Source: Kutzneria viridogrisea
GTDB taxonomy: Bacteria; Actinomycetota; Actinomycetes; Mycobacteriales; Pseudonocardiaceae
Length of the DNA: 64,000 nucleotides
Assembly (NCBI GenBank): GCA_014138725.1
Contig: JACJID010000002.1
Location: 820,001-884,000 of the forward strand
Direction of reading: 5' to 3'
Below, in pieces: positions 779 through 14,874 of this stretch; positions within the stretch are counted from its first letter, which is position 1, and the number at the start of each line of letters is the position of its first letter. The position numbers and the translations under genes were made by a program. Below the pieces are notes generated by a model. The model was not told where the DNA came from, did not search any database, and saw nothing but the letters and a program-made list of their open reading frames with translations.

Positions 779-1261
779 ATGGCCGATTTGCACGAGATCG
801 CACCCAGTTTTGTCGAGATGGCCCACCAGATCGTGTGGTGCACCGTCTCCACGGTGGACAGCTCCGATCGGCCGCGCAGCCGGGTGCTGCACCCGCTGTG
901 GGAGTGGCAGGACGGCGAGCTCACCGGCTGGATCCTCACCGGGGCGACCCCGGCCAAGCGGGCGCACCTGGCCCGCAGCCCGCACGTGGCCTGCAACTAC
1001 TGGACGCCCAGCCACGACACCTGCCTGGCCGAGTGCCACGCCGAGTGGGTGGCCGACCTGGACACCAAGACCCGGATCTGGAACCTGTTCCGCGAGGCCC
1101 CCGAGCCGCTGGGCTACGACCCCGGCGGCATCGGCGTGCCCGGCTGGACCGGCCCGGACGCGCCCACCGTCGCACTGCTCAGGCTGCGGCCCTGGCGGCT
1201 GCGCGTGCTGCCCGGCGAGAACCTGGCCAAGGGCGTACCGGCGACCTCCTGGCGGGCCTGA
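779..1261 (+). CDS. Pyridoxamine 5'-phosphate oxidase-like (FMN split-barrel) protein
   Basis: 160 residues. The fold is that of the PNPOx/F420-FMN split barrel: residues 15-35 give the first strands (VWCTVSTVDSSDRPRSRVLHP), followed by the ligand-facing TGATPAKRAHLARSPHVACNYW stretch around residues 54-75. Such proteins bind FMN or F420 and reduce or oxidise small substrates; the substrate cannot be told here. It lacks the C-terminal PLP-site signature of true PdxH, so vitamin B6 synthesis is unlikely. It ends six bases before the next gene, which suggests one transcript. The start is supported by the leaderless promoter just upstream. Confidence 0.8.
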   Translation: MADLHEIAPSFVEMAHQIVWCTVSTVDSSDRPRSRVLHPLWEWQDGELTGWILTGATPAKRAHLARSPHVACNYWTPSHDTCLAECHAEWVADLDTKTRIWNLFREAPEPLGYDPGGIGVPGWTGPDAPTVALLRLRPWRLRVLPGENLAKGVPATSWRA

Positions 1262-1267
1262 GCCGAG

Positions 1268-1981
1268 GTGGAGCCCGAGCCGGAGGACCTCAACCGCTGG
1301 GTGGCTGCCGGGTTCGCCCGCGGCGAGGCGGCCTCGTGGCGGCGCTGGCGGTTCACCATCGACCTCGCCCGCTCCTGGATCAGCGCGGGCGTGGGCACCG
1401 GGCTGAGCGCCGCCCAGTGGGCGATCGCCGGGGTCAACCCGGACACCGTGGGCCAGTGGCGGGAGGCGGGCATCCAGCCGCAGGACGCGGTGCGCTGGCA
1501 CGAGTTCGGCATCGGCCTGGAGCAGGCGCGCCGCTACCGGGCGCAGGGCGTCACCCCGGACCAGGCGTGGCAGCGCGGGCAGCAGGCCGAGCCGGGTGCC
1601 GACGCCGAGCAGGCCACCCGCCGGTTCCGCGAGGCGGGGGTCACCGGGGCGCTGCTCAGCTCGTACGTGCTGCGGCAGTGGCTGGACGAGCAGGCGCTGG
1701 AGTGGGCCCGGCACGGGGTGGACGCCGGGGACGCGCGGGCCTGGCTGGACCTGGGGCTGACCCCGGCGGAGGGCGCGGAGCTGTCCCGCGCCGGGCAGGA
1801 GCCGATGGCGGTGATCCGCGCCTGGTGGCGCACCGGCGTGCCCTTCGAGGAGGTCGCCGACTGGCTCGGCGCGGGCTTCGACCCGGAGGAGGCCGCACGC
1901 CGCCGCGCCGCGGGCATCACCGCGCGGCAGGCCGCCGCACTGCGCGAGCTGCGCCGTCACCAAGGGTTGCCTGAGGTCTAG
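1268..1981 (+). CDS. Hypothetical protein made of 13-residue helical repeats
   Basis: 237 residues with a GTG start, directly behind the split-barrel gene. I recognise no family. The protein is built from tandem units of 13 residues with the pattern W-x3-G-[IVLF]-x-P-x2-A, for example AQWAIAGVNPDTV, GQWREAGIQPQDA, VRWHEFGIGLEQA and RRYRAQGVTPDQA in direct succession, and again near the C-terminus (ADWLGAGFDPEEA, ARRRAAGITARQA). Each unit probably forms one helix and a turn, giving a solenoid that could bind protein or peptide. There is no signal peptide, membrane segment or catalytic motif. Cytoplasmic scaffold or binding protein is an inference only. Confidence 0.75.
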   Translation: MEPEPEDLNRWVAAGFARGEAASWRRWRFTIDLARSWISAGVGTGLSAAQWAIAGVNPDTVGQWREAGIQPQDAVRWHEFGIGLEQARRYRAQGVTPDQAWQRGQQAEPGADAEQATRRFREAGVTGALLSSYVLRQWLDEQALEWARHGVDAGDARAWLDLGLTPAEGAELSRAGQEPMAVIRAWWRTGVPFEEVADWLGAGFDPEEAARRRAAGITARQAAALRELRRHQGLPEV

Positions 1982-2082
1982 AGCATCCCTCAGCCCGGCG
2001 ACGGGCCAACTCTTTCGACTGATGTGTCAGGGCATTTGCCGTTTCGTCACCTACCGTCGCATGTGGACGACGTGGAGGTGGA

Positions 2083-3039
2083 ATGCGAGCGGACGGTGCC
2101 GAACCCGCCGAGACCGTGGTGTCGGTTGCCGGGAACCGCCTGCCGCTGGCCGAGTTCCTCGCCGACTGTCTCGACCCGGTCGGCGACGCCGAACTCCTCG
2201 CCGCCCGGCTGACCTTCCTCGCGGGCGGGCTGGACGCGCTGCGCAGCGCGGGCGCACCCCGCTGGACCCAGCTCGGGCTCGGCGGCGTGCGTGCCGCCCT
2301 GTACCCGGAACTCGCCCGGTGCGCCCGGTCCCTGCTCGCGCGGGGCGAGGTCACCGACTTCTTCTTCATGCACAAGCCGCCCGGGCTGCGGGTGCGGTTC
2401 GCCGCCGCGCAGGGCAGGGCGGCCGCGGTGCGCGAGCAGGTGCGCCGCGAAGCCGACCGGTGGCGCCGCGAGGGCCTGGTCGCCGAGGTGTCGCCCGGGC
2501 TGTACGAGCCCGAGGCGCACCTGTTCGGTGGGCCCGCGTCCATGCGGCACGTGCACCGACTGTTCACAGTGGACTCGCTCGCCTGGCTCGACCACCTCGC
2601 CGTGGCCGAGGGGCGGGCCCCGAACTGGGTGGTCTCCTTGCTGATGCTGCGATCGGTGTTCTCCGGGCTGGAGGTGGCGGGGTGGGAGGACCGGGACGTG
2701 TGGGCCAGGGTCCGCGACTGCGCACACCGCACGCTGCCGGGAGAGCTCACCACCGGACCCACCGCCACCGCCTGCCGTGAGCTGCGGGCCCGCTGGCGCG
2801 CACCGGAGGAGTTGCGGGCCGCACTCCCCGAACGGGCACAGGAGGTGCTGCGGGCGCACGACGCCGCGGTGCGGCCCGTGCTGGCGGACTGGCGCACGGA
2901 GTACTTCGCCAGCGAGCGGGCCAGGGTGGGGCCCCGCGAGGCGGCCTCCTACCACGTGGTGTTCCACTGGAACCGGGGGCGGCTCACCGGGGGCAGGCAG
3001 GCGCTGATCGCCGAGGCGCTGGCGGGCAGCGATGACTGA
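2083..3039 (+). CDS. lanB: Lanthipeptide dehydratase, elimination (SpaB C-terminal/thiopep_ocin) subunit
   Basis: 318 residues, ATG start with GGAGG six bases upstream. The protein matches the family called thiopeptide-type bacteriocin biosynthesis protein, equal to the C-terminal domain of full-length LanB. Typical landmarks are WTQLGLGG near residue 62, DFFFMHKPPGLRVRF near 92, and the C-terminal YHVVFHWNR. In the known pathway this domain removes glutamate from glutamylated Ser/Thr to leave dehydroalanine or dehydrobutyrine. It overlaps the following dehydratase gene by eight bases, so the two halves of LanB are made as separate, coupled subunits, as in thiopeptide and some class I lanthipeptide clusters. 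Here the elimination half comes first. Confidence 0.88.
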   Translation: MRADGAEPAETVVSVAGNRLPLAEFLADCLDPVGDAELLAARLTFLAGGLDALRSAGAPRWTQLGLGGVRAALYPELARCARSLLARGEVTDFFFMHKPPGLRVRFAAAQGRAAAVREQVRREADRWRREGLVAEVSPGLYEPEAHLFGGPASMRHVHRLFTVDSLAWLDHLAVAEGRAPNWVVSLLMLRSVFSGLEVAGWEDRDVWARVRDCAHRTLPGELTTGPTATACRELRARWRAPEELRAALPERAQEVLRAHDAAVRPVLADWRTEYFASERARVGPREAASYHVVFHWNRGRLTGGRQALIAEALAGSDD

Positions 3040-5548
3040 CGGGCCGCTGATCGGGGCCGGCGGGCTGCTGCGCGTGGCCGGGCTGCCCGCGCGGCTGTGG
3101 ACCGAGGCGGGCAACCCGGAGTTGTTCACGCGGTTGCGGGAACGGGTCGTGGAGCAGCAGTGCTACGCGGAGTTCGCGGGCACGCTGGCCGACCGGCTGG
3201 GCGCCGAACTGGTGCCGCACCCGTACCTGGAGCCCGAGGAGCGGGCCGGGCTGCTCGCGCTGCGCAGGCTGCTGCACCGGGGTTCGCCGGTGCCCGAGGC
3301 GGACTGCTACGCGCTGGCCGGTGCCGTGTCGGGCCTGTCCCCCGAACTGGCCGAGGACCTGGCGCACGCGGGGGACTGGTCCGCCGCGCTGGCGGTCCGC
3401 GAGCAGGCTGCGGAACAGGCCGTGCTGGCCGAGCAGCGGCGACTGGCCGGGCTGCCGTGGCGGCTGGTGACCGCCTCCCCGTTCGCGACCAGGGCGGTGA
3501 CCGAGGCCGCGCCGGGCATGATGGACGACATCCAGCGCAGGCTGGACTTCGGCGAGAACTGGGACAGCAAGCGCTTGCGGCACCGGGCCGACTACCTGCT
3601 GCGGGTGCTCGCGCGCGGCGCGGCCAAGCCCACGCCCCGGGACTGGCTGGGCCACGTGGGGCTGCTGCCCGTCGGCGAGCGCCGCGGCAACTGGACCCAG
3701 GTCGGCGCGAGCGCGGCGCACTGGGTGGCCAACATCCAGGCGGAGCGCAGGCAGCTGGCGGCGAACCTGGACCTGCGCGGTGCCACGATGACCATCACCG
3801 GCCTGCACTGGCTGCGCGACCACGAGCACATGTCCTGCTGGGTGGTCGATCCGGCCGACCGCACCGCGCTGCGCCGGGTGCTGGTGCGGCGCACGCCCGC
3901 GCTGGACGCGGTGCGGCGGGCACTGGAGTCGGGCGTGCGCGACGCCGACGAGCTGGTGCGCCTGCTGTCGCCGACCGCCGACGAGGAGCGCCGCGAGGTG
4001 CTGCGCGGATTCCTGCGCCACCTGGTGGAACTGGGCGTGGTGCAACTGTCCGCCGAACCCGCCAGCGAGCTGATCGGCTGGGACGGGGAGGTCACCAGCC
4101 ACGCCGAACCCGGGTTCGTCGACGTCTACCGGCAGGTCGGCGGCACCATGCCCGCCGACGCCGTGGGACGCCTCCAGGAGCTGGTCGGCCAGGCGTCCCG
4201 GGTCGGCGAGTTGCTGGCCTCGGCCAGCCCGCCGCCGCGCGAGCACCCGATCCTGGCTCTGGTCGGGCCCGCGCCCAGGCCCGTCACCGAGGTGCTCGCC
4301 GAGTACCTGCGTGCGCACCGGGACTGCGCTGATCCCGAACTCCGCTTGTGGGACAACGGGATCGCGCACGATCGGCCGAGCTGGCCGGAACCGCCCGCGG
4401 ACCCGGCGAGCCCGTACGGGCGGCTGCTGGCGCTGCTGGACACCGACGCCGAGCAGGTCGTGCTGACCCCGCGGCAGCTCGACGAGCTCGGCGCCCCGCC
4501 CGCGCAGCCCTCGTCCTGGCCGATGGACTGCCTGGTGCGCCCCATCGGCGGCGGCGGGTCCTCCGGTGCCGTGCTGGAGGCGGTGACCTACGCCGGTGTG
4601 GTGGACGCCCGCTTCGCCGAGGCGCTGCACCAGTTGCACGGGGAGGTCCCGCAGGTGACCGCGTACCGGCGCTTCCTCGACGAGCTGGCCCGCCGCTGCG
4701 GCGCGGAGTTCGTGGAGATCCTCGTGCCCCCGCTGCACGACAAGGCCGCCAACGCCGTGCGCCGCCCGCACTACTGCCCGACCTGGACCGGGGACGCCGA
4801 CGCGGCCAGCTACCAGCCGGGCGGCGGCCGGTACCTGCCGCTGGAGCGGATCACCGTGCGGCGGGTCGGCTCGCGCATCGTGGCCGAGGACGTGGACGGC
4901 CCGGACGGCATGGCCCTGTGGCCGATCCACCACGCGACCAGGACCCCGCTGGCCCCGTGGGGGCTGGTGATCACCCTGTTGTCGGCGGCCTCCCCCGCGC
5001 GGCAGCTGGCCAGGCCGCTGGCGCTGGGCAGCCCGGCCACGGCCCTGCGGCACCGCGACCGGCTGCCGCGTCTGGTGCTGGCGGGTGGGCTGGTGCTGTG
5101 CGGTGCCCAGTGGCGGATCGGCCGCGAGCAGCTGCCCGCCACGGATCTTCCTGTGCCGCAACGGATCCGCGAGCTGGCCGCGCTGCGCATCGGCACCGGG
5201 GTGCCGCGCTGGGTGTTCGCCCGCACCGAGGGCGGTCACCAGCCAAGGCCGGTGGACCTGGACTCGGTGGGCGCGCTGCGGGTGCTGGACAAGCTGCTCG
5301 CCGACGCCCCGCACGGCACCCTGCTGTTCGAGGAGATGCTGCCCGACCCGGAGCACCTGCCCTTCCGGGACGCCGACCGCGCGCCGATCGCGGGCCAGCT
5401 GCTGGCCCGGCTGCCGCACGAGAGCACCCCGAACCGCCTGGCCGCCAGGGCAACCCTGGCCTGGGCCCGGTTGATCAACGCCGAACAGGACCGCGCGCTG
5501 CCCAGTCAGCGCGCCCAGAGCACCACCGGCATCCCGGTGGGGAACTGA
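3032..5548 (+). CDS. lanB: Lanthipeptide dehydratase, glutamylation (Lant_dehydr_N) subunit
   Basis: 838 residues, shorter than the roughly 1000 residues of one-piece LanB because the elimination domain is encoded by the preceding gene. The N-terminal half shows LanB landmarks: 'ASPFATRAV' near residue 149, where NisB-like enzymes have SP(F/L)-S-T, and the downstream leader-binding winged-helix region. The C-terminal part has the YLPLERITVRR and HHATRTPLAPWGL segments of the family. Family knowledge: it uses glutamyl-tRNA to glutamylate Ser and Thr in the precursor core while binding the leader. It ends 30 bases before the precursor gene. Substrate is therefore very likely the peptide at 5579-5725. 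Confidence 0.88.
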   Translation: MTDGPLIGAGGLLRVAGLPARLWTEAGNPELFTRLRERVVEQQCYAEFAGTLADRLGAELVPHPYLEPEERAGLLALRRLLHRGSPVPEADCYALAGAVSGLSPELAEDLAHAGDWSAALAVREQAAEQAVLAEQRRLAGLPWRLVTASPFATRAVTEAAPGMMDDIQRRLDFGENWDSKRLRHRADYLLRVLARGAAKPTPRDWLGHVGLLPVGERRGNWTQVGASAAHWVANIQAERRQLAANLDLRGATMTITGLHWLRDHEHMSCWVVDPADRTALRRVLVRRTPALDAVRRALESGVRDADELVRLLSPTADEERREVLRGFLRHLVELGVVQLSAEPASELIGWDGEVTSHAEPGFVDVYRQVGGTMPADAVGRLQELVGQASRVGELLASASPPPREHPILALVGPAPRPVTEVLAEYLRAHRDCADPELRLWDNGIAHDRPSWPEPPADPASPYGRLLALLDTDAEQVVLTPRQLDELGAPPAQPSSWPMDCLVRPIGGGGSSGAVLEAVTYAGVVDARFAEALHQLHGEVPQVTAYRRFLDELARRCGAEFVEILVPPLHDKAANAVRRPHYCPTWTGDADAASYQPGGGRYLPLERITVRRVGSRIVAEDVDGPDGMALWPIHHATRTPLAPWGLVITLLSAASPARQLARPLALGSPATALRHRDRLPRLVLAGGLVLCGAQWRIGREQLPATDLPVPQRIRELAALRIGTGVPRWVFARTEGGHQPRPVDLDSVGALRVLDKLLADAPHGTLLFEEMLPDPEHLPFRDADRAPIAGQLLARLPHESTPNRLAARATLAWARLINAEQDRALPSQRAQSTTGIPVGN

Positions 5549-5562
5549 GTACGGGGCTAGTT

Positions 5563-5570
5563 GGAAGGGG
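5563..5570 (+). promoter_or_regulatory. Ribosome binding site that fixes the precursor start
   Basis: GGAAGGGG lies eight bases before GTG at 5579. The nearby GTG at 5574 is in a frame that stops after eight codons, so this site supports 5579 as the true start of the precursor peptide. Confidence 0.65.
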
Positions 5571-5578
5571 ATAGTGCT

Positions 5579-5725
5579 GTGCAACCGACACTGGAACTGA
5601 CCGAGTTGGACTCCTTGATCGACCAGTTGGACACGCAGGTCAGCGAGATCGCCGTGGACGCGAGAACTCCCGACTCCGCGATCTGCACGCTCGTCGGCTG
5701 TTCGATCAGTCGCTGGGAGTGCTGA
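5579..5725 (+). CDS. lanA: Class I lanthipeptide precursor peptide
   Basis: 48 residues, GTG start, placed between the dehydratase and cyclase genes. The N-terminal part (about residues 1-29) is acidic and helical, with an LTELDSL segment in the place of the FNLD-type box of class I leaders. The C-terminal 19 residues form the likely core and are rich in Ser/Thr and Cys: SAIC (33-36), TLVGC (37-41) and SRWEC (44-48). Each of the three Cys has a Ser or Thr three or four residues before it, which suits three non-overlapping (methyl)lanthionine rings. The leader-core border, perhaps near Ala28-Arg29, is a guess. The stop overlaps the cyclase start by seven bases. Annotation pipelines may miss this gene because of its length and start codon. 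Confidence 0.87.
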   Translation: MQPTLELTELDSLIDQLDTQVSEIAVDARTPDSAICTLVGCSISRWEC

Positions 5726-6765
5726 CGGTCCCAGCCGCACGAGTGCTCAGCTCGTGGACCGCGAGCGCGGACGAGGCACCGGACCTCGGTCCGGCCGCGC
5801 TCGCGGTCCTGCTGGCCGAGACCGGTGACGCCGCCGCGCACAGCGTGGTGCGGGCGGCGTTGCCGAAGTGGTTGTCCGGCGCCGTGCGCCCCAGCGCGCG
5901 CGTCGGCCTGCACGGCGGCATGGCGGGCACCCTGCTCGGCGTCCAGCTCATCGCCCGCCTGCACCCGCCCGCCGCCCGGTTGGCGGGCCGCGTGTCCGCC
6001 TGGATCGAGGACCACCTCGACCGGCACCCCTGGCGCACCTCGCAGTTGCGGTACCCCGACTACGACGTGATCAGCGGATCCGCCGGGCTCGCGCTCGCCG
6101 GGGTCAAGCGGGGCGAGGACCACCTGGACCGGCTCGGCTCGTTGCGGGTGGGCGGTCACGAGGGCGATCCGCTCAGCGGCTGGATCCAGGGCGGGATCGA
6201 CACCGGAATGGCCCACGGCGCCGCCGGGGTGCTGACCGCCCGGCCGAACCGCGAGCTGGCGGACTGGCTGGCCGCCGAGTCCTATCGGGACGGACTCGGG
6301 GTGCTTTCCTGGGCCAGACGGGCACGTGAGGGTGCGCCGCCTCCCCCACATGCGGTAAATCGCCAGGCTTGGTGCTACGGAACCCCCGGCATCGCCTGGG
6401 CCCTGTGGGTGGGCGGCGCCCGCGAGCAGGCGACCGAGGCGATGCTTTCCCTCTGTGCCGCCTGGGATCCCGAGGTGCACCTGACCGGGTCGACCGGCGA
6501 CCGGCTCGGCCTGTGCCACGGCGCGGCGGGCGTGCTGCTGGTCGCCGACGCCTTCGCCAGGCACGCCGACCTGGGCGAGGCCGCCTCACTTCGTGATCGA
6601 GTGGAGCGGTACCTGCTGGACCGGTTGGACACCGTGCGGGAGCTCGCCGCGACTGATCTCGGGCTGCTCACCGGGGCCTGCGGGGTGCTCTGCGCGCTGT
6701 TGACCGTGCGCGGCGGGCACCGCGGCTGGCTATCCTGCCTTGGACTGACTCCCCCTGAGGGATGA
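5719..6765 (+). CDS. lanC: Lanthionine synthetase C family cyclase
   Basis: 348 residues, GTG start inside the precursor's last codons, so translation is probably coupled. The zinc site of LanC enzymes is intact: Cys219 in WCYGTPG and Cys266-His267 in LCHGAAG. The usual catalytic region is also seen: Asp116 in YDVISGSAGL and His166 in GMAHGAAG, with GLHGGMAG near 63-70 forming one of the repeated alpha-toroid motifs. Family role: it activates cysteine thiols and adds them to dehydrated residues to form (methyl)lanthionine. It closes the operon; no protease, ABC exporter or immunity gene follows before the 6C RNA. Confidence 0.92.
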   Translation: MLTVPAARVLSSWTASADEAPDLGPAALAVLLAETGDAAAHSVVRAALPKWLSGAVRPSARVGLHGGMAGTLLGVQLIARLHPPAARLAGRVSAWIEDHLDRHPWRTSQLRYPDYDVISGSAGLALAGVKRGEDHLDRLGSLRVGGHEGDPLSGWIQGGIDTGMAHGAAGVLTARPNRELADWLAAESYRDGLGVLSWARRAREGAPPPPHAVNRQAWCYGTPGIAWALWVGGAREQATEAMLSLCAAWDPEVHLTGSTGDRLGLCHGAAGVLLVADAFARHADLGEAASLRDRVERYLLDRLDTVRELAATDLGLLTGACGVLCALLTVRGGHRGWLSCLGLTPPEG

Positions 6766-6890
6766 ATTTCTCTTTGACTTTCAACAGCCGGGAATACCCG
6801 ACCGGGCGAAGCGTTGAACATGCCCGCGCGGAAACGGCAGGTCAGCGGCTTGCCTCCCCCACAGGGACTAGGCCCCTTCCGTGACCCCCC

Positions 6891-6919
6891 TTGGAGAGAA
6901 GGGCGAAGTAACGTAGAGT
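6891..6919 (+). promoter_or_regulatory. Promoter for the 6C RNA
   Basis: TTGGAG (6891-6896) and TAGAGT (6914-6919) are separated by 17 bases, a good sigma-70-type promoter. Start of transcription would be near 6926, just before the structured RNA. Confidence 0.5.
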
Positions 6920-6925
6920 CGTAAG

Positions 6926-7063
6926 TGGTGCGGTTCGAGTAACAACGATCTTGACTAATGCGAAGCCGCACTGAACAACCACAGACACCCCGCTACTCCT
7001 CCCCCCGGTAGCGGGTTTTGCGAGACCCCCGTCCACCTCCCCCCTCTGGGACGGGGGTCTCGC
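6926..7063 (+). ncRNA. 6C RNA
   Basis: Two adjacent GC-rich hairpins each carry a run of six C in the loop, which is the defining mark of the actinobacterial 6C motif. Hairpin 1: CCCGCTAC (6989-6996) pairs with GTAGCGGG (7008-7015), followed by TTTT. Hairpin 2: the 15-base arm 7020-7034 pairs with 7049-7063. A 5' stem between GTGCGG (6928-6933) and CCGCAC (6966-6971) may close an upstream domain. Whether transcription ends after hairpin 1 or 2 is unclear; hairpin 2 also lies just beyond the stop of the convergent GGDEF gene and could serve as its terminator. The whole intergenic stretch 6766-7078 holds nothing else I can support. Confidence 0.75.
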
Positions 7064-7078
7064 TCTACCTCGGGCGGC

Positions 7079-8386
7079 TCAGCCCGCCGGTCTGATCACC
7101 GGCGTCTCGCGTCCCCAGGAGGCGAGGCAGGTCCGGTTGCGGCCCGCCCGCTTGGCGGCGTACAGGGCGCGGTCGGCGACCTGGAGCAGGCCGTCCAGGG
7201 TGAGCGCGTCGAAGGGGTAGAGCGCGGCCCCGACCGAACCGGTCACGGTGGCGACCGCGACACCGCCCTCCTGGCAGGTGACGGCCACGGTCAACCGCTC
7301 GATGCAGCGCCGCACCCGGTCGCCTGCCATGAGCAGCGAGCCCTGGGTGTGCACCCCGGGCACGAGCACGATGAACTCCTCGCCGCCGAAGCGCCCGACG
7401 AAGTCCGAGTCGGGCACCTCCCCGCGCAGGGCGTCGGCCACGGCGCGCAGCACCTCGTCCCCGGCCAGGTGCCCGTACCGGTCGTTGAGGTTCTTGAAGT
7501 GGTCCAGGTCCACGATCAGCAGCCCCATGCCGCCCGCGTTGCGGCGGGCGCCGTCCAACTGCTTGTGCGCCACGTCCCGCCAGTACGTGGCGTTGGCGAG
7601 CCCGGTCTTGGCGTCCCGGCTGGCGGCCCGCTCGAACTGGCCGACCAGGATCGCGCGGTGCAGCACCAGGGCGACCGGCACGGCGAACAGCAGGAGCAGT
7701 GGCTGCTCGGACAGCACGAGCGCGATGAGCAGCCCGAGGCAGACCGTGGCGGCGTCGAGCACGTTGAGGTCCCAGTCGCCGAGCAGGCCGACCACCGTGG
7801 GCCGCCGCGTGGTCAGCGCGAACACCCCGGCGACGAGCACCAACTGGCAGGCCCAGTAGGCGACTCCGGCGACGACCAGCACGGTCAGCGAGTCCACCGA
7901 CTGCAACAGCCCGGTCCACGGCCCGAACCCGTGCCCGGCCAGTTGCAGCACCCCGCTTGCCGAGCAGGCCGACAGCGTGATGGTCGCCGCGGCGAACAGG
8001 TTGCGGTGCGGCGGGCGGCTGCTCATCGACCAGCGCAGGGCCCTGGTCACGAGGACCACGCACAGGGCCAGCGCGGGCGGCAGGCTGCACACGGCGCCGA
8101 CGACCCAGATCGAGGTCAGGTCGACCTGAGGACCGCTCGGGGCCAGACTGCGCACCCGCTCGATCCGCCGGGTGGCCAGCAGGTGGGCGGCGGCGCAGCC
8201 CACCACCATGGCGAACGCAACCCACTGCACGGCACTGGGTTCGCTCGCGCTGGCCAACACCGCACCGGACACGAGCAGGGCGGCCAGTTCCACGGCGAGC
8301 ACGTAGGCGATGGAGGCCCAGGGCAACCGCCACAGCGACCACTGCGCCATTCGCCAGGTACGGGCGGGCCGACCGCCGTCGTCCAT
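7079..8386 (-). CDS. Membrane-bound diguanylate cyclase (GGDEF domain)
   Basis: 435 residues from ATG at 8386, preceded by GGGGGG eight bases upstream; a TTG at 8440 would add 18 residues and has no better ribosome site. The first about 250 residues contain seven or more hydrophobic helices of an integral membrane sensor. The C-terminal part is a GGDEF domain with DxLTGL replaced by DAKTGLAN, the LIVDLDHFKNLND metal motif and the active-site signature RFGGEEF. The domain should make cyclic di-GMP from GTP; no RxxD inhibitory site is evident just before GGEEF. No EAL domain is fused. Its 3' end faces the 6C RNA. Confidence 0.87.
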   Translation of the reverse strand: MDDGGRPARTWRMAQWSLWRLPWASIAYVLAVELAALLVSGAVLASASEPSAVQWVAFAMVVGCAAAHLLATRRIERVRSLAPSGPQVDLTSIWVVGAVCSLPPALALCVVLVTRALRWSMSSRPPHRNLFAAATITLSACSASGVLQLAGHGFGPWTGLLQSVDSLTVLVVAGVAYWACQLVLVAGVFALTTRRPTVVGLLGDWDLNVLDAATVCLGLLIALVLSEQPLLLLFAVPVALVLHRAILVGQFERAASRDAKTGLANATYWRDVAHKQLDGARRNAGGMGLLIVDLDHFKNLNDRYGHLAGDEVLRAVADALRGEVPDSDFVGRFGGEEFIVLVPGVHTQGSLLMAGDRVRRCIERLTVAVTCQEGGVAVATVTGSVGAALYPFDALTLDGLLQVADRALYAAKRAGRNRTCLASWGRETPVIRPAG

Positions 8387-8535
8387 CGCCACCGCCCCCC
8401 GGTCCTGATGAGGTCCGACTGCCTGACGGTAACCAGCCAATCACTGCCGTGTCAGACGAATGGCGGCACCCGGCACCCGATTACGCCGATTCGGTCACGT
8501 TCGGGCAGAGCTGCCGACCAACGGACAACCTTCCG

Positions 8536-9672
8536 TCAACCAATGACACGGCGCTCGCGCAGTTCGCTCACCTCCGCCCCGGACAGCCCGAGCTCGGCGA
8601 GCACCTCGTCGGTGTGCTGGGCGGGTTTCGGCGGTGCCACCGGGGTCGCCGTCGGCGTGCGGTCGAAGCGCGGCGCGGGTGCGGGCTGCACCACCCCGGC
8701 CAGCTCCACGAAGCTCTCCCTGGCCTTGTTGTGCGGGTGGTCGGCGGCCTCCTCCGGCGCGAGCACCGGGGCCAGGCACGCGTCGCTGCCCGCCGACAGC
8801 GCCGACCACTCGTCCCTGGTGCGCCGCTTCACCGCGGCGGCGAGCAGCTCGCGCAGCCGCGGCCAGTGCGCGGGGTCGAGCTGGTTGCCGGGCAGCTGCG
8901 CCGGGTCGATCTCCAGCAGGGCCAGCAGGTCGGCGAAGAACTTCGGCTCGATGGCGCCGATCGCCACGTACTTGCCGTCGGCGGTCTCGTAGGTGTCGTA
9001 GAACGGCGCACCGCCGTCGAGCATGTTGGTACCGCGTGGCCCGGACCAGCCACCCGCCGCCTTCATGCCGTGCACGAAGGTGGACAGCAGGGCGGCGCCG
9101 TCGACCATCGCGGCGTCCACCACCTGGCCCAGGCCCGAACGCTCCCGCTCGTAGAGCGCGGCGAGGATGCCGGTGGCCAGCAGCAGCCCGCCGCCACCGA
9201 AGTCCCCGACCAGGTTCAGCGGCGGCACCGGCCGCTGCCCCGCCCGGCCGATCGGCTCCAGCGCACCGGCCACCGCGATGTAGTCGATGTCGTGCCCGGC
9301 CCGGTCGGCCAGCGGCCCGTCCTGGCCCCAGCCGGTCATCCGCCCGTAAACCAGCCTGGGATTGCGCGCGTGGCACTGCCGCGGCCCCACGCCCAGTCGC
9401 TCGGCCACACCCGGTCGGTAGCCCTCGACCAGGACGTCGGACCGCTCGGCCAGGCGCAGCACGAGCTCCGCGCCCTCCGGCACCTTCAGGTCCACCGCGA
9501 TGGCGCGACGGCCGCGGGTGAGCGGGTCGTTGGGGACCAGCGAGCCCGCGCCGGGCCGGTCGATGCGGATCACCTCGGCCCCGAGGTCGGCCAGCACCAT
9601 GCAGCCGAACGGGGCGGGCGCGAGTCCGGCCAGCTCGACGACCTTGACTCCGGAAAGCGGCCCCGCCTTCAC
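8536..9672 (-). CDS. CaiB/BaiF (type III) CoA transferase, alpha-methylacyl-CoA racemase-like
   Basis: 378 residues. The N-terminus GVKVVELAGLAPAPFGCMVLADLGAEVIRID is typical of family III CoA transferases and of alpha-methylacyl-CoA racemases. The catalytic Asp region is seen as RAGHDIDYIAVAGAL, and GGGGLLLATGILAAL follows as in the racemases. The likely reaction is epimerisation of 2-methyl-branched acyl-CoA, or CoA transfer. GTG at 9672 overlaps the stop of the upstream acyl-CoA dehydrogenase by four bases, so the genes are coupled. Together they suggest breakdown of branched or steroid-side-chain acyl-CoAs, which is inference. Confidence 0.85.
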   Translation of the reverse strand: MKAGPLSGVKVVELAGLAPAPFGCMVLADLGAEVIRIDRPGAGSLVPNDPLTRGRRAIAVDLKVPEGAELVLRLAERSDVLVEGYRPGVAERLGVGPRQCHARNPRLVYGRMTGWGQDGPLADRAGHDIDYIAVAGALEPIGRAGQRPVPPLNLVGDFGGGGLLLATGILAALYERERSGLGQVVDAAMVDGAALLSTFVHGMKAAGGWSGPRGTNMLDGGAPFYDTYETADGKYVAIGAIEPKFFADLLALLEIDPAQLPGNQLDPAHWPRLRELLAAAVKRRTRDEWSALSAGSDACLAPVLAPEEAADHPHNKARESFVELAGVVQPAPAPRFDRTPTATPVAPPKPAQHTDEVLAELGLSGAEVSELRERRVIG

Positions 9673-10817
9673 AGCGTCCGCCCGATGATTTCCTTCATGA
9701 TCTCGTTGGTACCGCCGTAGATCTTCTGCACCCTGGCGTCGGCCCACAGCCGCGCGATCGGGTACTCGTTCATGTAGCCGTAGCCGCCGAACAGTTGCAG
9801 GCAGCGGTCGGCGACCCGGCACAGCCGCTCACTGGTCCACCACTTGGCCATGGCCGCGGTCGGCACGTCCAGCTCACCCTTGAGGTGCGAGAGCACGCAC
9901 TGGTCCACGAACGCCTTGGTGACGGCCACCTCCGTGCTGCACTCGGCGAGCTCGAACTTGGTGTTCTGGAACTTGATCAGCTCGCGGCCGAAGGCCTGGC
10001 GCTGCTTGACGTAGTCCAGGGTCAGCTCCACGGCGATCTCCATGCCCGCCAGCGCGGCCGTGGCGATCAGCAGCCGCTCCTGGGGCAGCTGCTGCATGAG
10101 CTGGATGAAGCCCAGCCCCTCCTGGCCGCCGAGCAGGTTGTCCACCGGCACGCGGACGTCGTCGAAGAACAGCTCCGAGGTGTCCTGGCCCTTGAGGCCG
10201 ATCTTGTCCAGGATGCGGCCGCGGCGGAAGCCCTCCACCTGGTCGGTCTCCACCACCACCAGGGAGATGCCGTGCGCGCCCTGGTCGCTGTCGGTCTTGA
10301 CCACCACGATGATCAGCTCGGCCTGGCTGCCGTTGGTGATGAAGGTCTTGGCCCCGTTGACCACGTAGTGGTCCCCGTCGCGGACCGCCTTGGTGCGCAC
10401 GTTCTGCAGGTCCGAGCCGGTGCCCGGCTCGCTCATCGCGATGGCGCCCACCTTCTCGCCGGAGGCCAGCTTGGGCAGCCAGCGCTGCTTCTGCTCCTCG
10501 GTGCCGTAGGCGTTGAGGTAGTGCGCCACGATGCCGCTGTGCACGCTGTTGCCCCAGCAGCTGTCCTGGGCGCGGGCCTGCTCCTCCAGGATCACCGCCT
10601 CGTGCGCGTAGGTGCCGCCGCCACCGCCGTACTGCTCCGGGATGCTCAGGCAGAGCAGGCCGACCTCGCCCGCCTTGTTCCACAGCTCGCGGTCCACGGC
10701 CTGCTGCTTGGCCCAGCGCTCCTGGTGGGGCGTGAGCTCCTTGGCGAAGAAGGTCCTGGCCAGCTCGCGCAGCTGGTCGAGGTCCTCGGTCATCCAGGGC
10801 GAACGGTGCGGGGCCAC
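9669..10817 (-). CDS. Acyl-CoA dehydrogenase
   Basis: About 382 residues, the normal length. Seen: AIAMSEPGTGSDLQNVRT (flavin and substrate contact), FITNGSQAELIIVVVKT, the QAFGRELIKFQNTKFELAE stretch of the C-terminal helical domain, and QLFGGYGYMNEYPIARLWADARVQKIYGGTNEIMKE at the end. The catalytic base of the family falls in that last stretch (YGGTNE, Glu). FAD-dependent alpha,beta-dehydrogenation of an acyl-CoA, electrons passing to ETF. GTG at 10817 follows GGAGG by about five bases; a downstream ATG at 10793 is an alternative. It is divergent from the TetR gene and shares a palindrome-bearing promoter region with it. Confidence 0.9.
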   Translation of the reverse strand: MAPHRSPWMTEDLDQLRELARTFFAKELTPHQERWAKQQAVDRELWNKAGEVGLLCLSIPEQYGGGGGTYAHEAVILEEQARAQDSCWGNSVHSGIVAHYLNAYGTEEQKQRWLPKLASGEKVGAIAMSEPGTGSDLQNVRTKAVRDGDHYVVNGAKTFITNGSQAELIIVVVKTDSDQGAHGISLVVVETDQVEGFRRGRILDKIGLKGQDTSELFFDDVRVPVDNLLGGQEGLGFIQLMQQLPQERLLIATAALAGMEIAVELTLDYVKQRQAFGRELIKFQNTKFELAECSTEVAVTKAFVDQCVLSHLKGELDVPTAAMAKWWTSERLCRVADRCLQLFGGYGYMNEYPIARLWADARVQKIYGGTNEIMKEIIGRTL

Positions 10818-10844
10818 ACCCACCTCCAAGTGAAAAACATTCAG

Positions 10845-10879
10845 GGCTGCCGGTAACTTCGCCCAACTTACCGGCAGCC
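10845..10879. promoter_or_regulatory. Candidate TetR operator
   Basis: A perfect 12-base inverted repeat, GGCTGCCGGTAA (10845-10856) and its complement at 10868-10879, with an 11-base spacer, sits between the divergent acyl-CoA dehydrogenase and TetR genes. Size and position fit an operator for the adjacent TetR repressor controlling both directions. Confidence 0.6.
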
Positions 10880-10902
10880 TGGATTGTTTGTGAAGTGCTC
10901 GC

Positions 10903-10908
10903 TAGCAT
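10903..10908 (+). promoter_or_regulatory. -10 element of leaderless TetR promoter
   Basis: TAGCAT ends seven bases before GTG at 10916, which lacks a ribosome site; this decides for 10916 over the earlier GTG at 10895, which lies upstream of the box. Confidence 0.5.
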
Positions 10909-10915
10909 CAGCCTG

Positions 10916-11515
10916 GTGACCAGGCCCAGACTGACCCAGCAGGAGCGCACCGAGCGCACCCGTGAACTGCTGCTCGACGCCACCATCGACTGCCTGGTCG
11001 AGCTGGGTTACGCCCGCACCTCCACCAATGAGATCTGCCGCAGGGCCGGGGTCTCACGCGGCGCGCAGCAGCACCACTTCGCCACCAAGGCCGAGCTGAT
11101 GGCCAGCGCCGTGGAACACCTGGTGAGCAAGATCATCGACCGGATGACCAGCGGCGCCCGCGAGGCACTGACCGGTCCGGACCGGATCAGCCAGGGCATC
11201 GACATGCTGTGGCGCGGCTACTCCGGCTCGCTGTCCACCGCCGTGATGGAGCTGTGGGTGGCCGGGCGCACCGACCCCGAGCTGCACACCGCCATGCAGC
11301 CGATCGACAAGGCCCTGGCCAGGCGCACCGCCGAGCTGTTCCGCGAGATGCTCGGCGAGCAGGTGGCCGGGGACCGCCCCGACCTGCCGCTCTGGCTGAC
11401 CGTCAACCTCATCCGCGGGCTCGCGCTGGACTCGATGATCGGCGGCGACCCGGCCCGCCGCAGGCAGCTGCTGGACGAGTGGAAGACCATCGCCGTCAAG
11501 ACCTACGGTTCCTGA
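10916..11515 (+). CDS. TetR/AcrR family transcriptional regulator
   Basis: 199 residues. The N-terminal helix-turn-helix is clear: ELLLDATIDCLVELGYARTSTNEICRRAGVSRGAQQHHFATKAELM (about residues 16-61). The remaining 135 residues form the all-helical ligand and dimer domain. By position it should repress the divergent acyl-CoA dehydrogenase/CoA transferase operon and itself through the palindrome at 10845-10879, with an acyl-CoA as a possible inducer; this is inference from context, as with other fatty-acid TetR regulators. A long hairpin follows three bases after its stop. Confidence 0.88.
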   Translation: MTRPRLTQQERTERTRELLLDATIDCLVELGYARTSTNEICRRAGVSRGAQQHHFATKAELMASAVEHLVSKIIDRMTSGAREALTGPDRISQGIDMLWRGYSGSLSTAVMELWVAGRTDPELHTAMQPIDKALARRTAELFREMLGEQVAGDRPDLPLWLTVNLIRGLALDSMIGGDPARRRQLLDEWKTIAVKTYGS

Positions 11516-11517
11516 GC

Positions 11518-11570
11518 GTCATGAAAGTGCCGTTCGAGACACTAGATGTCTCGAACGGCACTTTCATGAC
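11518..11570. terminator. Long hairpin, family A copy 1
   Basis: Perfect 24-base inverted repeat with loop CTAGA, directly after the TetR stop. The stem core AAAGTGCCGTTCGAGACA is shared with hairpins at 25379 and 48030. Probably a terminator or a dispersed palindromic repeat; there is no T-run. Confidence 0.65.
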
Positions 11571-11651
11571 ATGGGTTCGCCGCTTCCAGGCCTGACCCGA
11601 TCGCGACGGCGCTGGGCACCGACGCCGTAGCGCGGGACGCGGTCCAGGACG

Positions 11652-11657
11652 TAGGTT
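11652..11657 (+). promoter_or_regulatory. -10 element of leaderless MFS promoter
   Basis: TAGGTT ends eight bases before GTG at 11666; no Shine-Dalgarno sequence is present. Confidence 0.45.
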
Positions 11658-11665
11658 GATCCGAC

Positions 11666-12853
11666 GTGCTCACTGCTCGCCTGACCGCCGTGCTCGCCGT
11701 GACCTGCGCGGTGACCTCCTCGAACATCTACCTGGTGCAGCCCGTGCTGGAGCAGGTCGCCGCCGACCTGCACGTCAGCGAGGGCGCCGCCGGGACCGTG
11801 CCGACCGCGACGCAGCTCGGCTACGCGGCGGGCATCCTGCTGTTGGTACCGCTGGGGGACATCCGCAACCGCCGACCGCTGATCCTGGCCATGATGGCGG
11901 CGACCACACTGGCGCTGGTCGCGGCGGCGCTGGCGCCCTCGATCGGCTGGCTCGCGGGGGCGGGCTTCGCCATCGGACTGCTCACGCCGATCCCCCAGCT
12001 CGTGCTGCCGCTGGGCGTCGCACTGGCGGGCGGGCAGCGGCAGGGCCGGGTCGTCGGCGTGTTGCAGGGCGGTCTGCTGGTGGGACTGCTCGCCTCCCGC
12101 GCGTACTCCGGGGCGCTGGGCGAGTTGCTGGGCTGGCGCCAGGTCTACTGGTGTTCGGTGGCGATGATGGTCGTGGTGGGCCTGGTGCTGCTGCGCGCAC
12201 TGCCCTCGGCCCCGGCGAAGGCCACGGGCCTGAGCTACGCCGCGCTGCTGCGCACCCTGCCGAAGCTGTTGCTGGGCAACAAGGTCGTGCTGGGCGTCTG
12301 CGTGTCCGGGGTGCTGGTCGGCGTGGCCTTCGGCGCGTTCTGGAACACCCTGTCCTTCGTGCTGCTGCGCGAGTTCGGCTTCGGACCGGCGATCGTGGGC
12401 CTGTTCGGGCTGGTGGCCGCGGCCAGCGCGGCGACCTCCCCGATGGCGGGGCGGTTCACCGACCGGTTCGGCGGGCGGCGCGGGCAACTGCTGCTGATCG
12501 GCACGGCCATCCTGGGCTGGGGCGTGCTGGCGATCGGCCCGAGCTGGGTGGGCTGGTTCCTGCTCGGCACGGTGCTGCTGGACATCGGGGTGTGGGGCAA
12601 CCAGGTGGTCAACCAGGCGGTGCTGTTCGGGCTGCACTCCGGGGACCACAGCAGGCTGAACACCCTGTACTTCTTCACCCGGTTCCTGGGCATCGCGGCG
12701 GGTTCGGCGGTGGGCGCCCAGCTGTGGTCGGACTGGGGCTGGGGTGCGGTGAGCCTGCTGGGTGTGCTGGCCGCGGTGGCGGCGCTGCCGATCGCGCTGG
12801 CCGCGGCACCGCGGGCCGGGCAGCCTCAGCCCGCGTCGCCCTCGGTCAGGTGA
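11666..12853 (+). CDS. MFS transporter
   Basis: 395 residues with about twelve hydrophobic helices. The loop 2-3 signature is PLGDIRNRRPLIL (about residues 61-73) and its second-half copy is AGRFTDRFGGRRGQLLL, as in the major facilitator superfamily. The type resembles the drug:H+ antiporter/YgaY-like group of single-substrate exporters, often placed next to a MarR or TetR gene. The substrate is not deducible. The last 28 bases overlap the convergent MarR gene. Confidence 0.87.
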   Translation: MLTARLTAVLAVTCAVTSSNIYLVQPVLEQVAADLHVSEGAAGTVPTATQLGYAAGILLLVPLGDIRNRRPLILAMMAATTLALVAAALAPSIGWLAGAGFAIGLLTPIPQLVLPLGVALAGGQRQGRVVGVLQGGLLVGLLASRAYSGALGELLGWRQVYWCSVAMMVVVGLVLLRALPSAPAKATGLSYAALLRTLPKLLLGNKVVLGVCVSGVLVGVAFGAFWNTLSFVLLREFGFGPAIVGLFGLVAAASAATSPMAGRFTDRFGGRRGQLLLIGTAILGWGVLAIGPSWVGWFLLGTVLLDIGVWGNQVVNQAVLFGLHSGDHSRLNTLYFFTRFLGIAAGSAVGAQLWSDWGWGAVSLLGVLAAVAALPIALAAAPRAGQPQPASPSVR

Positions 12854-13299
12854 CGGTAGCCCAGGTGCACGCCGACGGGCAGCTCGTGCCCGTCGGCCAG
12901 CCTGCGCAGCAGGTCGGTCAGCACGCCCGCCTCGCGCTCGCTGAGCGGGGCGCAGACCTCGCGCTCGAACTCCACCGCGATCACGCTCACCGAGGCCAGG
13001 GTCTCCCAGCCCCGCTCGGTGGGGTGCAGCGCGTAGAGCCTGCGGTCCTGCGGGTTGCGGCTGCGCTCGACCAGCCCGCGCGCCTCCAGGTCGTCGACCA
13101 GGCCGACCATCCGGCTGGGCAGGATGCCCAACCGGTCGGCCAGCGCCTGCTGGCTCAGGCCGGGGGTCTGCGAGATCAGCCGCAGCACGCCCACCTGCGG
13201 CGGGGTCAGCCCGAGCGCCGCGACGCGCTCGGCGAAGCCGTCCGAGACGAACACGCCCATCTGCGACAACAGGAAACCCACGCCGGTCGGTGACTGCAC
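12826..13299 (-). CDS. MarR family transcriptional regulator
   Basis: 157 residues, GTG start. The winged helix is clear: LGLTPPQVGVLRLISQTPGLSQQALADRLGILPSRMVGLVDDLEARGLVERSRNPQDRRLYALHPTERG (about residues 29-97), including the wing motif DRRLYALHPTE. MarR proteins bind palindromes as dimers and respond to small aromatic ligands or oxidants. It overlaps the MFS transporter 3' to 3' by 28 bases and may regulate it, although the opposite orientation leaves that open. Confidence 0.88.
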   Translation of the reverse strand: MQSPTGVGFLLSQMGVFVSDGFAERVAALGLTPPQVGVLRLISQTPGLSQQALADRLGILPSRMVGLVDDLEARGLVERSRNPQDRRLYALHPTERGWETLASVSVIAVEFEREVCAPLSEREAGVLTDLLRRLADGHELPVGVHLGYRHLTEGDAG

Positions 13300-13319
13300 A
13301 CGCGGACTCTACCGGCCGG

Positions 13320-14777
13320 TCAGGTCCGCAACCTGCGTCTGCGCCACACCACGGCCAGTCGCTCCACCCCGGCGCGCACGGTGTCCGGTCCCACCGCGTA
13401 GGACAGCCGCACCCGGTCGGTCTGCCCGTCGATGGCGGAGAACGCGGGCCCCGGTGTGATCAGCACCCCGCCGCGGCGCGCGGACTCGGCCAGCGCGACC
13501 GCGTTGCCCCCGGGCAGCCGCACCCACAGCGAGGCCCCGCCGTCGGGCACCACCCAGCTCCAGTCCGGCAGGTGCGCGGCCAGCAGCTCGGTGATCCACA
13601 GGTAGCCCGTGCGCAGCTCGCGGGCGCGCACCCTGCGGGCCCTTGGCACGTAGTCGAGCAGGCGCAGCGCGGCGAGCTGGCTGGGCACGGAGCTGCCCAG
13701 GTCCGCCGAGGACCGGTGGGACACCAGCTGGCGCACGGCCTGCGCGGTGGAGCGGACCCAGCCGATCCGGATGCCGCCCCAGAACAGCTTGGACAGCGAG
13801 CCGATGGTCAGCACCGGGGCCTCCGGCACCAGCGAGGCCATGGGGGTCGGTGGCGGCCCGGAGAACAGGGTGTCCACCGTGGACAGATCCTCCAGCAGCG
13901 TGGTCCCCGTGTCGGCCACCGCCTCCGCGACGGCCTTGGCCGCGGCGGGCCGCAGGGTCACGCCCACCGGGTTGTGCACGGCGGGCAGCAGGTAGAGCAG
14001 CCGGGGACGCCTGCTGCGCAACAGCCGGACCAGTACCTCGGCGTCCAGCCCGTCCTCCCGCAGCGGGATCGTGCGCAGGCGCGCGCCGCGGTCCCGGAAG
14101 GCCTCCAGCGCCCCGCGGTAGGTGGGGTCCTCGACCAGCACCTCGTCGCCGGGGGCGATCAACGCGCCCGCGACCAGTTGCAGCGCCTGCTGCGAGCCGC
14201 TGGTGACCAGGACCTGCTCCGGCTTGGTGGGCAGGCCGTCAACGGTGCACTGCCGGGCCAGGGCCTCGCGCAGCGGCGGCAGACCGGCCGGGTGGTAGCC
14301 GTGGCCGCGCACCCAGGACCGCAACTCGTCCGGCCCCACCGAGCCGACCACGTCGGCCACCCAGTCCTGGCCGGGCAGCGCCCCGCTGGACAGGTCGACC
14401 TGCTGCTGCCCGACCTTCGCGGTGAACGAGACCAGCCGCGCCGAGGGCACCGCCACACCCGGTTGGGGCACGCCGCGCACCCGGGTTCCGCTGCCCTGCC
14501 GGGAATCCACCAGTCCCAGTGAGCGCAGGGTGGTGTACGCCGTCACCAGCGTGCCCCTGCTGACCGCCAGCGCGGTGGCCAGGCTGCGCTCGGAGGGCAG
14601 CACCGTGCCGGGCGGCAGTTCGCCGGAGCTGATCAGCGCGGTGAGCGCTGCCGCCAACTGCCGGTGCAACGACTCCCGCGAGTCGGTGCACCAGCCTTCG
14701 AGCAGGCGGACCAGTGCGGCCTCGCCGATCCGGGAGTTGTCCACCAACGTTGTCCACTTCCAGCGAATTGGACTCAT
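13320..14777 (-). CDS. MocR-type GntR regulator with aminotransferase-like domain
   Basis: About 485 residues. An N-terminal GntR winged helix (LHRQLAAALTALISSGELPPGTVLPSERSLATALAVSRGTLVTAYTTLRSLGLVDSRQGSGTRV) is joined to a fold-type I PLP domain. The PLP lysine is in IGSLSKLFWGGIRIGW, and TSGSQQALQLVAGAL and LLPAVHNPVGVTL are typical of the cofactor site. Such proteins usually control amino-acid, PLP or GABA genes and are often autoregulated. ATG at 14777 has no ribosome site and lies right next to a palindrome; a GTG at 14744 is an alternative. The gene is divergent from the prim-pol-like gene. Confidence 0.87.
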   Translation of the reverse strand: MSPIRWKWTTLVDNSRIGEAALVRLLEGWCTDSRESLHRQLAAALTALISSGELPPGTVLPSERSLATALAVSRGTLVTAYTTLRSLGLVDSRQGSGTRVRGVPQPGVAVPSARLVSFTAKVGQQQVDLSSGALPGQDWVADVVGSVGPDELRSWVRGHGYHPAGLPPLREALARQCTVDGLPTKPEQVLVTSGSQQALQLVAGALIAPGDEVLVEDPTYRGALEAFRDRGARLRTIPLREDGLDAEVLVRLLRSRRPRLLYLLPAVHNPVGVTLRPAAAKAVAEAVADTGTTLLEDLSTVDTLFSGPPPTPMASLVPEAPVLTIGSLSKLFWGGIRIGWVRSTAQAVRQLVSHRSSADLGSSVPSQLAALRLLDYVPRARRVRARELRTGYLWITELLAAHLPDWSWVVPDGGASLWVRLPGGNAVALAESARRGGVLITPGPAFSAIDGQTDRVRLSYAVGPDTVRAGVERLAVVWRRRRLRT

Positions 14778-14779
14778 CC

Positions 14780-14801
14780 ACTGGCCGGTGATGCGGCCAG
14801 T
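14780..14801. promoter_or_regulatory. Candidate operator of the MocR regulator
   Basis: ACTGGCCG (14780-14787) and its complement CGGCCAGT (14794-14801), six bases apart, lie immediately upstream of the MocR start and inside the divergent promoter region. Autoregulation through this site is an inference. Confidence 0.45.
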
Positions 14802-14874
14802 CTGTCCACTGCAAGGTAGCGCCACCCCCGCGAAGGATGATCATGATCCCCACACTCACGTCCGCGCGACGGTC

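Follow-up and report, generated by a model that had tools for sequence, protein, structure and literature searches.

We suggest that a compact run of four plus-strand genes in Kutzneria is very probably a minimal class I lanthipeptide operon, which uses enzymes of the SapT (spt) family to make a three-ring product and depends on a protease and an exporter encoded outside it. The genes (positions 2083–6765 of the window, the 64,000-nucleotide stretch analysed here, from contig C2 of a 10.25 Mb genome, G000) encode, in this order, a glutamyl lyase (E), a glutamyl transferase (G), a precursor peptide (A), and a LanC cyclase (C). The arrangement is already known: a split LanB and a cluster devoid of a protease gene have been published for SapT, and the E-G-A-C order recurs in Pseudonocardiaceae and Streptomyces. 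New are the syn-lyase marks in E and a core whose rings, as predicted from the sequence, would equal SapT-type rings B, C, and D without ring A, that is, a new product from known machinery. The SapT enzyme family thereby reaches beyond Streptomyces into the Pseudonocardiaceae, where related leaders carry several dissimilar cores. These form a natural series for probing the influence of the core on syn elimination and ring size, in which the window core, with one Thr ring and two Ser rings, is a simple case.

Table 1. Features of the operon (window coordinates) and the evidence for each
Feature	Coordinates	Strand	Evidence
E, stand-alone glutamyl lyase, LanB elimination half, SptBb-like, 318 aa	2083–3039	+	PF14028, TIGR03891, AlphaFold model
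G, stand-alone glutamyl transferase, LanB glutamylation half, SptBa-like, 838 aa	3032–5548	+	PF04738, AlphaFold model
Likely ribosome-binding site of the precursor, GGAAGGGG	5563–5570	+	Sequence; identical letters before the second-operon precursors
A, 48-aa precursor	GTG 5579 to TGA 5725	+	Alignment of 26 precursors; pN/pS comparison
Putative core, residues 30–48 (tryptic fragment)	5666–5722	+	Conserved block in Kutzneria precursors
C, LanC cyclase, 348 aa	5719–6765	+	PF05147; alignment of 11 LanCs; NisC 2g02 alignment

Layout and setting of the operon

All four genes of the first-pass annotation are present, tightly packed, with an 8-bp overlap of E and G, a 30-bp gap between G and A, and a 7-bp overlap of A and C. 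As that annotation had pointed out, the LanB halves stand in the reverse of the one-piece order, the elimination half preceding the glutamylation half. Its remark that no protease, tailoring, or immunity gene is adjacent holds for the nine neighbours scanned with Pfam (779–14825), two of which were without a family. One transporter was found among them, an MFS protein (11666–12853) lying ~5 kb off behind other genes and outside the operon.

The window gave no Rfam match at the gathering score; a permissive search returned a 6C RNA-like element (RF01066) just 3' of the LanC gene (6984–7066; 42.4 bits, cut-off 47). Elsewhere in the genome there are two full-length LanB genes (L073, C2:1079627-1080355; L074, C5:516735-517481), each followed, by eye, by a LanC-like frame and, at L074, then by an isoaspartate-methyltransferase-like frame. 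A tandem pair of PF14028 genes (L075, G000:C10:307996-309957) stands behind a frame that resembles LanB-N by eye.

The elimination half and its active site

E is matched by PF14028 (4.4e-21) and TIGR03891 (2.2e-29), and its AlphaFold model (pLDDT 88.5) by MadB, MibB, PbtD, and NisB in Foldseek (TMq 0.40–0.60), MadB and MibB being best. The profiles, and the match of the predicted structure to solved LanB halves, bear out the earlier assignment to the elimination half. One could instead regard E as the [4+2] pyridine synthase of a thiopeptide-like or other pathway, as TIGR03891 is named for thiopeptide-type proteins and Foldseek also returns PbtD and TbtD. We find this scarcely credible in view of the better structural matches to MadB and MibB, the presence of LanC, the S/T–C ring spacing of the precursor, and the lack of an azoline-forming gene among the nine Pfam-scanned neighbours, and we retain the reading of E as a lyase.

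For active-site mapping, NisB (4wd9) was aligned via a full-length LanB of the same genome, and MadB and MibB were aligned to the E profile, with completion by eye. NisB Y776 corresponds to K98 of E, R784/R786 to R103/R105, E823 to E144, and R826 to L147; H961 falls at V293, a placement made by eye with an NR pair as anchor. The marks of syn-glutamyl lyases given in the accessible parts of PMC9011353 and PMC9486935 are Lys for the NisB Tyr, a hydrophobic residue for Arg826, and no catalytic His, and E carries all three (K98, L147, and V293 at the position of H961). Judged by these residues, E is a syn-type lyase, a trait absent from the first-pass annotation. SptBb makes (E)-Dhb through net syn elimination (PMC9890492).

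The operon could still be of class I with E as an ordinary anti lyase, which would lead to standard DL-MeLan. The anti type is the largest group of class I lyases and includes some lyases of split systems (PMC9486935), and family members from Actinophytocola (L035/L050) and Saccharothrix (L051) keep Arg at the R826 position. The window enzyme, however, has no equivalents of Tyr776, Arg826, and His961 and does have the syn-type Lys, and we consider an anti lyase unlikely and the syn type preferable. After removal of ten duplicate places, non-orphan loci supplied 25 lyases, and 24 of these have Lys at the Tyr776 position (23 by motif, L070 by eye); the remaining lyase, L055, is without the stretch that bears it. 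Across 396 genomes sampled evenly from the phylum, lyase matches at E ≤ 1e-10 occurred in 10 and below 1e-80 in 3, own genome included.

Transferase and cyclase

PF04738 matches G weakly (3.5e-11, best stretch residues 521–752). The G profile gave no match among PDB sequences, and the predicted structure was therefore used instead. The AlphaFold model (pLDDT 88.5) has TbtB as its top Foldseek match (6ec8; E 9.5e-31, TMq 0.61), followed in order by GodF, MibB, MadB, and NisB. This likeness to solved LanB halves, together with PF04738, upholds the earlier designation of G as the glutamylation half.

C is matched by PF05147 (4.4e-17). Its residues H166, C219, C266, and H267 are invariant across 11 LanC homologues, and its AHG, WCYG, and ICHG motifs fall in register with NisC 2g02. 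Read against what we take to be the zinc-binding residues of NisC, the zinc-ligand and catalytic His motifs are there, consistent with the intact zinc site claimed before. At the level of families and folds, the operon encodes the parts expected of a class I system, namely LanB transferase and lyase halves, LanC motifs, and a leader/core precursor.

Precursor and predicted product

Read from 5579, A has no family above the cut-off in the profile scan. Residues 1–28 are leader-like, with a conserved ELDxLIxxLDxx. The 48-residue frame of the first-pass annotation is real, but its description as Cys-rich hardly suits a peptide with three Cys in 48 residues. A precursor frame beside homologous lanB/lanC genes had been proposed as a test, and such a frame is present at all five Kutzneria second operons (see below) that hold G and LanC. 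Four of these homologues are collinear, have 48 codons, lie between G and LanC, and are 52–56% identical to A, while the fifth (genome G003) is cut short by an in-frame stop that follows residue 41; the frame is absent at six congener loci that also lack LanC. Compared with the four intact paralogues, window A shows pN below pS in both leader and core, with pN of 0.15–0.22 in the core and 0.32–0.40 in the leader. Comparisons within that set of four do not put pN clearly below pS, with pN exceeding pS in 2 of 6 pairs; the gene there partly overlaps the G frame. We conclude, by sequence comparison, that the precursor frame of the window is not a chance one. At the second operons the G frame extends ~60 bp into the precursor in another frame (L042:7744-7804 and the other four).

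Decay of the window operon, with no product made, would match what is seen in congeners, six of which are missing A and C at this locus and one of which (G003) has a broken second operon. Yet all four window genes are open with their motifs intact, and the core varies less than the leader. We hold decay to be very improbable and favour an operon that makes a product.

The alignment of 26 precursors predicts the ring pairs S33–C36, T37–C41, and S44–C48, T30 and S42 not being conserved. The cores of the Kutzneria second operons (APDSAICSLVGCDMSHWHC and related sequences) retain S33, S/T37, and S44 together with C36, C41, and C48, and vary at T30 and S42. Where the first-pass annotation foresaw the loss of up to five waters, we expect three, because only three Ser/Thr sit at conserved ring positions. 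For the tryptic fragment T30–C48, the calculated [M+H]+ is 2040.919 unmodified and 1986.887 after three water losses. In the pathway that we infer, G would glutamylate the precursor at S33, T37, and S44 with Glu-tRNA as donor, E would eliminate the glutamate (net syn for Thr) to leave Dha, (E)-Dhb, and Dha, and LanC would add C36, C41, and C48, closing three non-overlapping rings (SxxC, TxxxC, and SxxxC). The product would contain two Lan and one D-allo-L-MeLan and have lost three waters; leader removal and export would fall to genes elsewhere in the genome.

The window core (..S..CT...CS.S...C) aligns with SapT-type rings B, C, and D at equal ring sizes, with two residues in the linker before the last ring versus one in SapT-type cores. 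Its hydropathy (GRAVY) is 0.43, compared with 1.56 in the SapT-type core of S. eurythermus; being far less hydrophobic, it leaves a surfactant role unsupported, and a surface-active function in aerial growth, by analogy with SapT, is a doubtful guess. The nisin-type lipid II motif, SxxxCTP(G/S)C (PMC7268733), is absent from the window core, which reads SAICTLVGC. Cores from Actinophytocola, Actinokineospora, and Amycolatopsis (L050, L052, and L056) have SLLLCSxxC, near to that motif but not identical with it. The core, which the first-pass annotation did not recognise among known lantibiotics, has no match within the literature searched, which covered few subscription papers and no supplements: four fragments of the core occur in none of these papers, and no title or abstract on Kutzneria lanthipeptides, split LanB, SapT, or glutamyl lyases treats this operon. 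The accessible part of PMC10232511 mentions class I clusters in general.

Distribution of the family

When 84,980 species genomes were scanned with a pattern drawn from an alignment of G, 28 loci emerged. At 20 of these, including loci of Pseudonocardiaceae and Streptomyces, there were matches to all of E, G, and C in that order. The other eight comprise three Kutzneria orphan loci with E and G (L045, L047, and L048), a Kutzneria MAG with G only (L046), L055 with E and G, L058 and L069 with G only, and L072 with G and C, whose contig starts inside G. With the E-G-C order at 20 of 28 loci, the E-first arrangement is a family trait; as read from these sequences, the split and the leading elimination half belong to the whole SapT-like family and are thus not novel here.

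The search for precursor frames in named genomes covered 24 intervals (L053 and L054 being the same places as L042 and L041) and succeeded in 21, the misses being L055, L058 (contig end), and L069. Streptomyces precursors at these loci resemble YTQGCSGLCTIVICATVVICG, which we take to be the SapT sequence. In nine of 11, Thr, Ser, Thr, and Thr are each paired with a following Cys, and a fifth, C-terminal S-G-x-x-C is present in two of 11; the exceptions are L065, with Ser in the first ring, and L060 (Streptomyces sp. WAC05374), without the first ring and hence with the same three-ring set lacking ring A as the window. Streptoalloteichus loci L057 and L068 hold two different precursors between G and LanC.

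Around 19 loci, the only genes that recur widely are G (19), C (17), and E (15), of which the latter two are undercounted as the ORF chooser skipped some; other listed ORF families occur at four loci at most. No exporter or protease family recurs widely within ~8–9 kb of these 19 loci. At one locus, in Actinokineospora spheciospongiae (L034, oriented 11759-13524), an ABC-transporter-like ATPase frame lies, by eye, directly behind LanC.

Orphan transferases in other Kutzneria

The window's own locus in six congeners (G001–G006; L028–L033) has G in every case, 65–70% identical, without a precursor or LanC match. LanC matches in five congeners belong to a second operon, located elsewhere and with the same gene order; G004, a 93%-complete MAG, has none. 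In G003 the second operon (L043, G003:C1:1866360-1870132) is broken: its G gene is fragmented over different frames, and a stop interrupts the precursor core. As A and C are missing at the same locus in all six, the product would seem dispensable in the genus.

The retention of G at these loci was the result that we least expected. The orphan lyases have Gly for Lys in four congeners, are truncated in one (G002, front half gone), and were not found in one (G004), whereas the orphan transferase is intact in all six. Pairwise dN/dS for orphan G is 0.10–0.17 (10 pairs, five congeners) and for orphan E 0.21–0.28 (6 pairs, four genomes), compared with 0.20–0.29 for G (6 pairs, four genomes), 0.25–0.38 for E (6 pairs), and 0.21–0.40 for C (10 pairs, five genomes) of the second operons. 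Values are higher in G pairs with G004 or the window (0.36–0.41) and in E pairs with the window (0.39–0.49). In five of the six congeners, then, strong purifying selection acts on orphan G. A 6C RNA-like element also lies downstream of orphan G in 6 of 6.

In a tree of G, the window sequence and the G004 orphan pair together (96/91) within the orphan clade (100/99), and it follows that A and C either disappeared on two or more occasions or were regained in the window lineage. A tentative scenario, which we put forward as one possibility, is that the Kutzneria split dehydratase was freed from lanthipeptide making, probably twice, that orphan G may modify a new peptide substrate in an aminoacyl-tRNA-dependent manner, and that the window species has the ancestral operon. 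The congeners present an apparent case of a LanB transferase half retained without a working lyase, cyclase, or precursor alongside. The idea that orphan G acts in trans for the second operon is weakened by G004, without E or C matches, and by the broken second operon of G003. In the congeners, a conserved frame that separates orphan G from the 6C element was considered as a substrate peptide and set aside; it contains no Cys, and the DNA around it is itself conserved as far as that element.

Comparison with known systems

Split LanBs occur in a number of class I clusters (PMC7268733). The dehydratases NisB (nisin), MibB (microbisporicin), and MadB have the fold of both halves in common with window E and G but are one protein with an anti-type site, and sequence similarity to them is weak for E and none was found for G. 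Thiopeptide split LanB (TbtB/TbtC) and goadsporin GodF have a stand-alone transferase, as in G, for which TbtB is the best match and GodF the next. Thiopeptide and goadsporin pathways also carry azole-forming enzymes, none of which is encoded by the nine neighbours scanned here.

The elimination domain of CoiSA, from the coi cluster, has the same Lys–Arg spacing (K46-R51-R53) as E (K98-R103-R105), but is fused to a methyltransferase and found beside a full-length LanB, whereas E is the only lyase of its operon (PMC9486935, PMC9011353).

SapT of Streptomyces lavenduligriseus (SptA, SptBa, SptBb, SptC) is closest in design, with a split LanB, syn-lyase marks, LanC, four genes, and, in the accessible text of PMC9011353 and PMC9890492, no protease gene. 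For SptA, co-expression needed an actinobacterial GluRS/tRNA-Glu. The same part of PMC9011353 reports SapT homologues solely from Streptomyces and describes these peptides, SapT included, as containing one Lan and three MeLan, some with an additional N-terminal S-G-[VILF]-[VIGF]-C; in the Streptomyces precursors analysed here the extra S-G-x-x-C is C-terminal. By sequence, precursors of the Streptomyces E-G-A-C loci fit the published description of SapT. It is through these related loci, and not spt itself, that the E-G-A-C order and the alignable leaders are shared with the window, whose proteins are 40–41% (G) and 44–48% (E) identical to those of Streptomyces. SapT has four rings and a hydrophobic core, whereas the window peptide has three S/T–C pairs, no ring A, and a polar core with Arg, Trp, and Glu.
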